This document shows positions 23,974-31,930 of a stretch of DNA of 32,127 nucleotides, in pieces (the stretch's first letter is position 1; each line of letters opens with the position of its first letter). The notes under the pieces are model-generated. The model was not told the DNA's origin, ran no database searches, and worked only from the letters and a program-made list of their open reading frames with translations. The position numbers and the translations under genes are program-made. The stretch covers positions 1-32,127 of the forward strand of contig CAJQQY010000278.1 in the NCBI GenBank assembly GCA_905480595.1, in the 5' to 3' direction. This stretch comes from an uncultured Saprospiraceae bacterium (GTDB lineage: Bacteria; Bacteroidota; Bacteroidia; Chitinophagales; Saprospiraceae).

Positions 23974-24996
23974 CTACGTCGTTTGTTTTTTTAACAAATT
24001 TACTTCCCTCGACAATTCAGGTAAATTCTTAAATACGGCATATGATCTTAAATAATTAGCATAAGCTATCGCCGGAGAACCATAAAGTGACGTATTCTCT
24101 TTTTTCACACTTCTAGCTACTCCAGATTGTGCTTGAATTTTTGCGCCATTAGCTACTTCGATATGTCCAACAAATCCAACTTGCCCGCCAATCATACAAT
24201 TTTCTCCAATTTTAGTGCTTCCTGCTACCCCCGTTTGAGCTGCGATAACTGTATTTTTTCCAATCTCCACATTATGAGCAATCATGATAAGGTTATCTAA
24301 CTTTACTCCTTGCCGGATAATTGTAGATCCCATAGTTGCTCGATCAATGGTCGAATTTGCACCAACCTCAACATTATCTTCTAAAATTGCATTTCCAATT
24401 TGAGCTACTTTTTTAAATGATCCATCAGCTTCTGGTGCAAAACCAAAACCATCTCCTCCAATCACTACGTTTGCATGCAAAATGCAATTGTTTCCTATTT
24501 CACAATCATGATATACTTTTACTCCTGAGAAGAAAGTACAGTTCTCTCCGATTTTGGCATTTCTCCCAACAAAAACTTGCGCTTGTAGGGACGTATTATC
24601 TCCAATCTTAGCACCTTCTTCAACTACCACGAATGGGCCTATATTGACATTTTCTCCAATTTTTGCAGAAGGATGAATAGCAGCTTGAGATGAAATTTCT
24701 CCTTTCTTATCTTCTTTTTGTGCGAAATTTTCTAGCAAAAAAGAAACTGATTTATAAACATCTTCCACGCGAATTAAAGTCGTAGAAATGGGTTGGGATG
24801 GGACAAAATCCTTACTGACTAAAATAATCGCAGCTTTGGTCGTATAAACGTAATGTTCATATTTTGGATTGGCAAAAAAACAAATCGAATCTTCTGTAGC
24901 TTCTTCGATTTTGCTTGGACGACTAACCATGACATCGGGATTACCTTCGATGGTACCATTAAGCGCATGGCTAAGTTCTTTGGCTGAAATTTGCAT
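23974..24996 (-). CDS. lpxD: UDP-3-O-(3-hydroxyacyl)glucosamine N-acyltransferase
   Basis: LpxD adds the second 3-hydroxyacyl chain, to the amino group of the LpxC product. The 340-residue protein has the N-terminal uridine-binding domain ([37 protein letters not shown]) followed by hexapeptide repeats forming a left-handed beta-helix. Family motifs include [33 protein letters not shown] and MIAHNVEIG with catalytic His241, then [10 protein letters not shown] and a C-terminal helix ([14 protein letters not shown]). It is the first gene of the lpx run and is divergent from hemC. Confidence 0.95.
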
Positions 24997-25286: not shown

Positions 25287-26189
25287 ATGGAATTTTCAAA
25301 GAAAATAAAAATAGGTACACGTGGGAGTCGATTAGCTTTGTGGCAAGCTGAATTTCTCAAAAGTCAATTAGCTGAAATTGGGGTTGAATCTGAATTAATT
25401 ATTATTAAAACCAGAGGCGATCAAATTCAACATATCGGTTTTGACAAAATGGAAGGCAAAGGTTTTTTCACTAAAGAAATTGAAGATGCATTGTTGCGAG
25501 GAGATGTTGACATGGCTGTTCATTCAATGAAAGATATGCCCACCAACTCACCTGAAGGATTGGTGATCACCGCTGTTTCTTATCGAGAAGATCCTGCTGA
25601 CTGGCTATTAATCAGAAAAGAATCGATGGATGCAAGTTTGGATTTGAGAATGAAAAAAAATGCTATTGTTGGAACTTCCTCTGCTCGACGGAAGGCGCAA
25701 ATGTTAGATTTCCGAGATGATATTGAGTTAAAAGATATTCGTGGAAATGTGCCAACTCGAATTGAAAAGTTACGAAAAGGTGATTTTGATGCAATTCTTT
25801 TGGCTGGAGCTGGAGTGCAAAGGTTGAAGTTGGATGTTTCGGATTTGGAGGTGATCAAGTTTAATGTTCGAGAATTTGTTCCTGCTCCTGCACAAGGTGT
25901 ATTGGCTTTTCAAACTTGCAGCGACGATAAAGACACTCGGCGGATTTTGAAAAAAATTCATCACTCTGATGTGGCAAAATGTACAAACATCGAACGGAAG
26001 GTTTTGAATCTTTTGGATGGCGGGTGCCAATTGCCAATGGGTGCATATTGTGAAAGAGATGAGGACGGAAATTATCACCTTTGGGTTGCTAAAGCTGATG
26101 CTTGGGATGGTGAAGTAAAACGGGTTCGACTGTCTTCAAGTACTAGTTTTGAATTGGCAGAAGCTGCTATTAAAAAACTTAAGGACTAA
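25287..26189 (+). CDS. hemC: Porphobilinogen deaminase (hydroxymethylbilane synthase)
   Basis: HemC joins four porphobilinogen units into hydroxymethylbilane in the cytoplasmic heme pathway. The start chosen is the ATG at 25287 (EFSKKIKIGTRGSRLALW), giving 300 residues, normal for the family; the frame is open upstream to 25098 but that part has no similarity and contains a promoter-like site. Motifs: IGTRGSRLALWQA, GKGFFTKEIEDALL, DMAVHSMKDMPT with catalytic Asp83, GTSSARRKAQ, DIRGNVPTRIEKL and LLDGGCQLPMGAYC with Cys247, which holds the dipyrromethane cofactor. No other heme-synthesis gene adjoins it. The window encodes c-type cytochrome proteins that need heme. Confidence 0.96.
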   Translation: MEFSKKIKIGTRGSRLALWQAEFLKSQLAEIGVESELIIIKTRGDQIQHIGFDKMEGKGFFTKEIEDALLRGDVDMAVHSMKDMPTNSPEGLVITAVSYREDPADWLLIRKESMDASLDLRMKKNAIVGTSSARRKAQMLDFRDDIELKDIRGNVPTRIEKLRKGDFDAILLAGAGVQRLKLDVSDLEVIKFNVREFVPAPAQGVLAFQTCSDDKDTRRILKKIHHSDVAKCTNIERKVLNLLDGGCQLPMGAYCERDEDGNYHLWVAKADAWDGEVKRVRLSSSTSFELAEAAIKKLKD

Positions 26190-26251: not shown

Positions 26252-26836
26252 ATGTTTTTGTTTTTTCATATCAATGCTACTGGTCGTCCTAAAAAATGGA
26301 ACACTCCTCCAAGTGATACTTTTTTCTGGCCTCGATTATTTCAAATTTCTTGGCAACAATATAATGAGAAAGGAGAAATCCAAAACTCCGCAGATTATAT
26401 TATCAAGCCTCAAGGATTTGAAGTGCCAATCGAAGTGGAAGATTTTACAAAAGTAACTCCCGAGCGAGCAGAGGAAGAAGGTGTAGAATTAGAACAAGTT
26501 TTAAAAGAATTTTCAAAACTTGTGGATGAGTCTGAATATCTGATTGCTCACAATATTAAGTTGGCAGGTAATGTGGTGGAAGCAGAATTTATCCGTACAA
26601 ATATTCCTTCTCGATTGATGGCATCTGACCAATATTCATTGATGCAAGAGGCTACTTATTTTTGTAGAATTCCTGCGAAGGGTGGAACAAAATATAAATG
26701 GCCTTCACTTCAAGATGTCCATATGGCTTGTTATGATTCTAATTTTGCTGATGCATATGATCCGTCAGTTTGTGTACAAGCAGTAGCAAATTGCTTTTTC
26801 TATTTGTTGAAAAAGGAAGAAATAGATGTATTTTAA
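26252..26836 (+). CDS. Catalytically dead DEDDh exonuclease homologue (DnaQ fold)
   Basis: The 194-residue protein aligns along its length with Bacteroidota 3'-5' exonucleases of the DNA polymerase III epsilon type: WPRLFQISWQQYNEKGE, YIIKPQGFEVP, EEEGVELEQVLKEFSKLVDE, YLIAHNI, AEFIRTNIPS, YKWPSLQDVH and NCFFYLLK. All five catalytic positions are replaced: the DTE motif reads HIN (His6, Asn8), the second-motif Asp is Ala105, and the HxxxxD motif is Tyr169 and Cys174. It is therefore most likely a pseudoenzyme that binds nucleic acid or a protein. The reading frame is intact and ends 12 bases before the next gene. It lies 62 bases after hemC and may share its transcript. Confidence 0.8.
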   Translation: MFLFFHINATGRPKKWNTPPSDTFFWPRLFQISWQQYNEKGEIQNSADYIIKPQGFEVPIEVEDFTKVTPERAEEEGVELEQVLKEFSKLVDESEYLIAHNIKLAGNVVEAEFIRTNIPSRLMASDQYSLMQEATYFCRIPAKGGTKYKWPSLQDVHMACYDSNFADAYDPSVCVQAVANCFFYLLKKEEIDVF

Positions 26837-26848
26837 ATTTCAACTCAA

Positions 26849-27532
26849 GTGAACTTACAAAAGATACAACAATACATTTCCAACTACAAAAAACATCTTC
26901 AATCCACGCGTGATTTTGAAGAAGGTTATAAATGGGAATCACTTCAAATCTTCCAAAACAATTGGGATATAGAAGCAGGTGATTTTGGAAAAATGTATGA
27001 CGCTAGTTTTCAAAATAACGAGACTAGAAGACTTTGGAAGGGAGATAATTTTTTTCCAAAAGAAATGATGTTGAAATTTATCGAGATGGCTCCAGACTTT
27101 GTGAGGAATATGTTTCGAGATTTATTTGATGAAAATAAAGATGTAGAAAATCGAATCTCTCGTTTTCAGTTTTGTTGTGATAGTTTGTTGAGCGAGTACA
27201 AGTCTAAATTTCCATTGACGATTGAAAATCGTCATTTCCATTTGGAGAATCATATGATTTCGATGTACTTATGTTTTCGATTTCCAGAACAATATTCACT
27301 TTTTGAATATCCTGCTTTTAAACAAGCGATGATAAATATTGGTGTGACAAATTTGCCAACTCAATTTGACATTACTCGTTTTTTTAAAGTAGCTCGAACA
27401 CTAAATATTTTTTTACAAAAAGACCAACAGTTAGTTAATTTGCAAAAAAAGAAGCTACGTCCACAGATTCATTTTATGGAGAGCACCTTGCTATTAGTGA
27501 ATGATTTTTATATTTTTATTGCTAGATATTAA
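26849..27532 (+). CDS. Stand-alone protein resembling the N-terminal region of McrB-like AAA ATPases
   Basis: The 227-residue protein starts with GTG at 26849; no ATG gives a full-length alternative. The sequence IQQYISNYKKHLQ, YKWESLQIFQNNWDIEAGDFGKMY, FFPKEMMLKFIEMAPDFVRNMFRDLFDE, MYLCFRFPEQYSLFEYPAFKQA and LLVNDFYIFIARY resembles the N-terminal region that precedes the AAA GTPase domain in many Bacteroidota McrB-like proteins. No Walker motif or AAA domain is present here or downstream. It sits 12 bases after the dead exonuclease gene on the same strand, so the pair is probably cotranslated. The similarity is recalled by pattern, not by search; the function is unknown. Confidence 0.6.
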   Translation: MNLQKIQQYISNYKKHLQSTRDFEEGYKWESLQIFQNNWDIEAGDFGKMYDASFQNNETRRLWKGDNFFPKEMMLKFIEMAPDFVRNMFRDLFDENKDVENRISRFQFCCDSLLSEYKSKFPLTIENRHFHLENHMISMYLCFRFPEQYSLFEYPAFKQAMINIGVTNLPTQFDITRFFKVARTLNIFLQKDQQLVNLQKKKLRPQIHFMESTLLLVNDFYIFIARY

Positions 27533-31180: not shown

Positions 31181-31270
31181 CACGTGGCTGTCTGCTTTAG
31201 CTGACCTAAAAGAAATATTACCCAGTATGTATTTTTTTTACGGTCAGCTAAAGCAGACCACCACGTGTTA
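31178..31270. repeat. BIME of two inverted REP copies (C and D) between htrA-like and RAYT genes
   Basis: Copy C (31178-31206, plus) and copy D (31241-31270, minus) face each other across a 34-base spacer. Both begin TAACACGTGG and continue with TCTGCTTTAGCTGACC. Copy C carries two substitutions (CTG for TGG at 31187-31189). The outer TAA of C is the stop codon of the HtrA-like gene; the outer TAA of D is the stop codon of the RAYT gene. The element fills the space between these convergent genes, and copy D shares its tail GACCGTAAAAAAA with copy E. Confidence 0.88.
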
Positions 31271-31930
31271 TATATCAGAACAATCCTTCCAGTAAGTAAA
31301 TTTATAATCTTCCCAATTGTCAACTAATTTGGCCACAACTGGATTTCTAATTACATACCAGATTATATTAGTCAATTCTTTTCCACTTCTAACATAGTGA
31401 TCATAACTTTCTCTTTGCCAAAATTTCCCTTTCCGATTTAAAAATCGGTTTACTTCAAAGGCACTCCCCCCTTTTACTTTTCTCAAAATTTCATTCACTT
31501 GAATATAGTTTTTCAAGTTCAAATTTTCATTCTCTTTTCCTTGAAGTTGGATGGATGTATCAAAAACTAAATGAACATGATTTGGCATAATGCAATAGGC
31601 TAATAGATCATAAAGTTCGCCATCATATAAATGAATTTTACTTGCTATTATCTCTGCAACTTTTTCGTTTTTCAAAAAATCATTTCCATCTATTATTTGA
31701 TCCAATCCCCAATCCATTTTCTTGAAAAATAATTTTCGCTGATTATAAATAGCTTCATTAGCATCTAAATATCGAGATGTCTTTATCTCAAAAATTTTAT
31801 CATTGAGTTCTGATCTAATTTTTTTCAAATACAGAAGTGGCAATGAACCTTTCAATCTAAATGTAATAAAAAATGTTCCGCCAATAGGTTGAATATGTGG
31901 CAAGTTAGAGCGGTAAAATGTTTTCATCAT
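31268..31930 (-). CDS. REP-associated tyrosine transposase (RAYT, Y1/HUH family)
   Basis: The 220-residue protein belongs to the IS200/IS605-related Y1 transposases. It has GGTFFITFRLKGSLPLLYL near the start, the HUH motif in AYCIMPNHVHLVF (His118, His120), and the catalytic Tyr region WQRESYDHYVR (Tyr176 or Tyr179) followed by NIIWYVIRNPVVAKLV. RAYTs are single-strand nucleases that recognise and spread REP hairpins but usually do not move as classical insertion sequences. The gene is bracketed by REP copies D and E, whose heads both point inward; E starts 2 bases beyond the start codon and D supplies the stop codon. The double Met start leaves no room for a leader without the REP. All motifs look intact. 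Confidence 0.92.
   Translation of the reverse strand: MMKTFYRSNLPHIQPIGGTFFITFRLKGSLPLLYLKKIRSELNDKIFEIKTSRYLDANEAIYNQRKLFFKKMDWGLDQIIDGNDFLKNEKVAEIIASKIHLYDGELYDLLAYCIMPNHVHLVFDTSIQLQGKENENLNLKNYIQVNEILRKVKGGSAFEVNRFLNRKGKFWQRESYDHYVRSGKELTNIIWYVIRNPVVAKLVDNWEDYKFTYWKDCSDI

Follow-up and report, generated by a model that had tools for sequence, protein, structure and literature searches.

A DEDDh exonuclease homologue of Saprospiraceae that lacks all five catalytic residues is very probably a selected pseudoenzyme

The window (the whole stretch of DNA analysed, 32,127 nucleotides from an uncultured Saprospiraceae bacterium) encodes a DEDDh exonuclease homologue in which each of the five catalytic residues has been replaced, and the sequence comparisons described below make it very probable that this protein is a real pseudoenzyme kept by selection. 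On balance, we think that it is an inherited pseudoenzyme of the exonuclease line of the Exo-PHP-DnaE polymerases, in which catalysis would have become dispensable and the protein would have been kept for binding or as a scaffold.

The window gene and its catalytic positions

The gene and the positions of its five catalytic columns, as assigned by alignment, are as follows:

26252 to 26836, plus strand: DEDDh (DnaQ/epsilon-like) exonuclease homologue of 194 aa, catalytic set lost; identified from the ORF, the fold and Saprospiraceae homologues
26267 to 26275, plus strand: codons 6 to 8, His-Ile-Asn, with His6 (codon 26267 to 26269) for the first Asp and Asn8 (26273 to 26275) for the Glu
26564 to 26566, plus strand: codon 105, Ala for the third catalytic residue Asp, fixed in the genus
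26756 to 26758, plus strand: codon 169, Tyr for the catalytic His; Y, F or H in the genus
26771 to 26773, plus strand: codon 174, Cys for the last catalytic Asp; C, Y, N or A in the genus

The open frame runs from an ATG at 26252 to a TAA at 26836, and alignment with intact family members placed H6, N8, A105, Y169 and C174 in the D-E-D-H-D columns, which bears out the claim of the initial annotation that the whole DEDDh set is replaced. Homology was weak by single sequence but secure by fold. The Pfam RNase_T match of the protein was 21.9 bits (under the 24-bit cut-off), a PDB search with the single window sequence gave no match, an NCBIfam search with it gave nothing informative, and its match to PHROG 192 ("DNA polymerase exonuclease subunit") reached no better than 1e-5. 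The AlphaFold2 model (built from 8 sequences, with a mean pLDDT of 79 and residues 135-166 mostly below 50) gave a Z of 18.8 against DnaQ 8h18 and of 17.7 against E. coli epsilon 2gui, and the top matches in Foldseek and VIA-align were DnaQ-type exonucleases, which places the protein in the DEDDh superfamily by its RNase H-like DnaQ fold. A defence-system identity was also considered and was rejected, the best PADLOC match having an E of 0.034.

The same 194-aa ORF was found in four other species of the genus (71-93% identity), with HNAFC, HNAYY, HNAFN and HNAHA in the catalytic columns. Therefore, the ORF without its catalytic set is neither a chance frame nor an assembly error. The same-genus matches to the window were titled as Saprospiraceae metagenome-assembled genomes. 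His6, Asn8 and Ala105 were fixed in the five sampled species, and across these species position 169 was Y/F/Y/F/H and position 174 was C/C/Y/N/A. Thus, the expectation that the same five positions would be non-catalytic throughout a clade held for the set as a whole, which was absent in 5 of 5 species, but positions 169 and 174 drift, and in one species (L011, HNAHA) residue 169 is a His, with the other four sites replaced. Because these two sites vary, Tyr169 and Cys174 do not constitute a replacement active site. As an enzyme class, DEDDh 3'-5' exonucleases are recognised by Asp-Glu-Asp-His-Asp, and the protein, lacking this set throughout the sampled genus, falls outside the class.

Pairwise dN/dS of the exonuclease homologue within the genus, calculated with our own NG86 script, was 0.03-0.16, an approximate range since dS was 0.9-2.3 and near saturation in most comparisons. 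These values were in the range of those of hemC and lpxD, and dN was similar to that of hemC. The selection analysis suggested by the initial annotation thus indicated strong purifying selection, and the recent decay that it had set against its own reading was not seen, the same-genus orthologues being neither intact nor broken. The protein therefore combines the two marks of a pseudoenzyme, the loss of catalytic residues and purifying selection. Because the catalytic columns of the sister genus (support 97) read DEDND and NKDND, the loss near the window's genus appears to have proceeded in steps, probably beginning with the catalytic His.

Relatives in Saprospiraceae and the residues kept and lost

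A profile search of 248 Saprospiraceae genomes found a homologue in 127, nearly always one per genome, and no homologue in about half of the genomes; therefore, the gene is not essential family-wide. The 127 collected rows, which include one duplicate species and one truncated homologue, comprised 30 with DEDHD (intact copies) and 97 without it (dead copies), and the commonest dead states were DSNND (31) and DSNGD (30), or 61 of the 97 rows. In a tree whose far end was set by fused domains from other families, the dead copies formed three maximal clades. Because the lost residues differ between lineages (DECHD, DEDND, DEDYD, DENND/DEDED/DNDQD and DSNxD), the residue letters suggest that the catalytic set was probably lost at least five separate times in Saprospiraceae. 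One genome holds both a DEDYD copy (L050, in which Tyr replaces the catalytic His) and an intact copy (L131).

Two stretches of the window protein stood out in a conservation comparison of intact and dead copies:

26642 to 26656, plus strand: M131, E133 and T135 (M-Q-E-A-T, residues 131-135), at 100% in dead copies
26696 to 26704, plus strand: K149-W150-P151, without variation in the genus and conserved at 97% or more in the remaining dead copies

The dead copies also keep W26-P27-R28, F87, N101, E112 and R115. In the intact copies E133 and T135 are weaker, with Ser the commonest residue at position 133 (38%) and T135 at 76%, whereas the catalytic set, T9, H66 and F104 show the opposite trend, being 97-100% conserved in intact copies and lost or loosened in the dead ones. 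The window's genus follows the dead-copy pattern, and T9, H66 and F104 are replaced there. We take the lost or loosened positions to form the 3'-nucleotide site, a role borrowed from knowledge of the DnaQ fold, and we read this pattern of conservation as a dismantling of that site together with the keeping of a partly new binding face. The present role would then be one of binding, the protein probably binding something rather than cutting it.

The initial annotation proposed that the protein is retained with a non-catalytic role, and this agrees with the genus-wide loss, the strong purifying selection and the large related set of dead copies. Its more specific proposal, nucleic-acid binding or a decoy function through the old substrate groove, fared less well, and we regard it as possible but doubtful. 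The fold is kept, N101 and R115 are invariant, and an RNA-binding role has been proposed for dead proteins of the exonuclease fold in other organisms (Maelstrom, PMC2628886), but T9, H66 and F104 are eroded, whereas the M131/E133/T135, K149-W150-P151 and W26-P27-R28 positions are fixed. The structure prediction recovered the DnaQ fold. The conservation pattern fits a kept binding face, which may or may not coincide with the 3'-end groove.

The best-known examples of dead DnaQ-fold proteins are eukaryotic. The Maelstrom (MAEL) domain (PMC2628886) likewise has a DnaQ-H fold minus DEDHD, with intermediate forms in protists, but it belongs to a eukaryotic germline protein and has a new EHHCHC set, whereas the window's genus has no new conserved set. 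Bacterial Pol I and group-2 PolB also contain inactivated DnaQ-like domains (PMC12926913), which are likewise retained exonuclease domains in bacteria, but they lie inside polymerases and belong to other DnaQ subfamilies, whereas the window protein is free-standing. A single bacterial clade in which some members are intact, some intermediate and some fully dead, together with a likely evolutionary source, makes the order of active-site loss testable, and the same Saprospiraceae clade allows a test of function outliving catalysis.

Fused Exo-PHP-DnaE polymerases and the PHP site

Outside Saprospiraceae, most of the best homologues corresponded to the first ~190 aa of ORFs of ~1450 aa that continue into a PHP domain (Exo-PHP-DnaE). 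The Saprospiraceae family profile matched these fused Exo domains at E values down to ~1e-72, which establishes homology. All of the fused Exo domains read had DEDHD, and none of the fused DnaEs read retained all nine PHP ligands. Exonuclease-DnaE1 fusions have been described in Bacteroidetes only (PMC3919608), and the Exo domain fused to DnaE1 in some Bacteroidetes is of the same sequence family as the window protein. However, these proteins are fused, with DEDHD intact and PHP broken, whereas the window protein is not fused to DnaE and is dead, and it accompanies an intact DnaE PHP motif.

In the 30 Saprospiraceae replicative DnaEs covered by our reading of the PHP site, the protein began directly at PHP with no fused Exo, and the nine-ligand motif HHDHEHCDH, taken in PMC12926913 to mark an active PHP proofreader, was complete (30/30 in both respects). 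By the published rule, inactivation in Pol III has struck the PHP site rather than the DnaQ proofreader (PMC12926913). Saprospiraceae would show the opposite, in that a PHP proofreading site that is apparently active occurs naturally together with a DEDDh homologue that has been disarmed. The intact PHP site of DnaE plausibly let exonuclease catalysis go, which is our proposed reason for the tolerance of the loss. Some stand-alone copies are intact although the PHP site is intact as well, and therefore the loss needs more than an active PHP site as its explanation.

The course of events that we propose is that, in an ancestor of part of Saprospiraceae, the gene for a free-standing protein of the exonuclease line found fused to DnaE in other Bacteroidia would have moved between hemC and hemD. 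The active site would have been lost because DnaE's own complete PHP proofreading site made the exonuclease activity dispensable, separately in several lineages and stepwise near the window's genus. A second, non-catalytic job would have kept the protein, with binding or scaffolding through W26-P27-R28, M131-x-E-x-T135, K149-W150-P151 and perhaps the tail. More tentatively, a former proofreading-type exonuclease, now dead, may be a conserved cellular component of many Saprospiraceae, an inversion of the Pol III rule, in a new binding role unrelated to the hem operon.

The tail in question is short and is typical of copies at the hem locus:

26816 to 26833, plus strand: C-terminal tail EEIDVF, acidic/hydrophobic and ending in F

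In a pattern count, a short tail ending in a hydrophobic residue and F (for example QLEDLF, EAIELF and EEIDVF) was present in 71 of 85 hem-locus copies, compared to 4 of 26 intact copies elsewhere, and it is possible that this tail is a partner-binding or clamp-binding peptide.

Its loose resemblance to a clamp-binding peptide, and the fact that the closest homologues outside the family are Exo domains fused to DnaE, would fit a non-catalytic subunit of DNA polymerase III, in which the dead exonuclease, still bound in trans to DnaE or to the sliding clamp, would be a structural counterpart of epsilon without proofreading. E. coli epsilon (DnaQ) has the fold in common with the window protein, as do other DEDDh exonucleases, and it binds the PHP domain by a long C-terminal tail. 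However, the window protein differs from epsilon in having no catalytic residue left and no such tail, the stand-alone proteins stopping at ~194 aa, and there is no conserved Gln in the short tail. Furthermore, no association of the homologue's gene with dnaE loci was seen, and the gene is missing from the search results for about half of the genomes. We therefore consider a polymerase subunit unlikely.

The hem locus and independence from haem synthesis

The neighbours of the gene in the window are as follows:

23974 to 24996, minus strand: lpxD, divergent neighbour, conserved across genera
25287 to 26189, plus strand: hemC (porphobilinogen deaminase) with catalytic residues intact, a conserved neighbour 62 nt upstream; start codon inferred from relatives
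26849 to 27532, plus strand: 227-aa protein with no family match, directly downstream, at the place of hemD in other genera

The usual locus of the dead copies consists of lpxD on the minus strand followed by hemC, the exonuclease homologue and hemD, the last three being same-strand genes with short gaps; no description of the hemC-exonuclease-hemD arrangement was found in the literature searched, the coverage of which was incomplete. In the window genome hemD sits elsewhere (G000:C429:11708-12301), and the 227-aa protein was confined to the window's genus among the loci examined, with a dN/dS of ~0.07-0.18. Proximity to hemC or hemD was found for 81 of 95 dead copies versus 4 of 30 intact copies (Fisher p 7e-13), although few independent changes underlie these counts and an independent-pairs phylogenetic test had no power.

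The HemC next to the exonuclease homologue was itself without its catalytic Lys-Asp pair, Arg residues and cofactor Cys at 21 loci, which belong to seven genera:

Dead-HemC loci: L039, L040, L066, L067, L073, L079, L082, L083, L087, L091, L096, L098, L105, L107, L111, L117, L122, L130, L134, L142, L145

HemB was absent in 17 of these 21 genomes, and the other four had HemB and a second, intact HemC elsewhere. The identity of the dead HemC between congeners was 26-57% (94% in one very close pair), whereas that of the adjacent dead exonuclease homologue was 62-97% within genera, similar to or above that of lpxD in most pairs. Because it is conserved where the neighbouring HemC is dead and fast-evolving, this comparison indicates that the dead exonuclease homologue is under a constraint of its own and that its job is not haem synthesis. 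Dependence on HemC was also rejected from the other side, a degenerate HemC occurring without the exonuclease homologue (L235). The dead HemC at the lpxD-adjacent locus is still a full-length or near full-length ORF despite its fast evolution.

These results bear on the idea of an accessory protein of tetrapyrrole synthesis that assists or regulates HemC or HemD, which would explain the place in the operon, since most dead copies lie between the two genes. However, the homologue remains conserved in genomes with a dead HemC and no HemB, it survives at loci without detectable hemC, and in several related genomes without it hemC is followed directly by hemD, which makes such a role distinctly improbable. 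A decaying pseudogene on its way out would fit the step-by-step disappearance of the catalytic set around the genus (DEDND, NKDND and finally none) and the patchy presence in Saprospiraceae, but it is contradicted by the purifying selection on full-length ORFs in five species and by the residues fixed at 100% across dead copies, the HemC of the haem-less genera showing by comparison how weak constraint looks, and we regard it as very improbable. There is equally little chance that the old site has acquired a different catalytic activity (an "active site switch"): D1 and D5 are still at 94-98% in the dead copies outside the genus, where metal or ligand binding is conceivable, but both are gone in the window's genus, where sites 169 and 174 are variable.

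Elsewhere in the window, a Y1/IS200-like transposase-type protein is encoded at 31268-31930 on the minus strand, with a match just under the Pfam cut-off.
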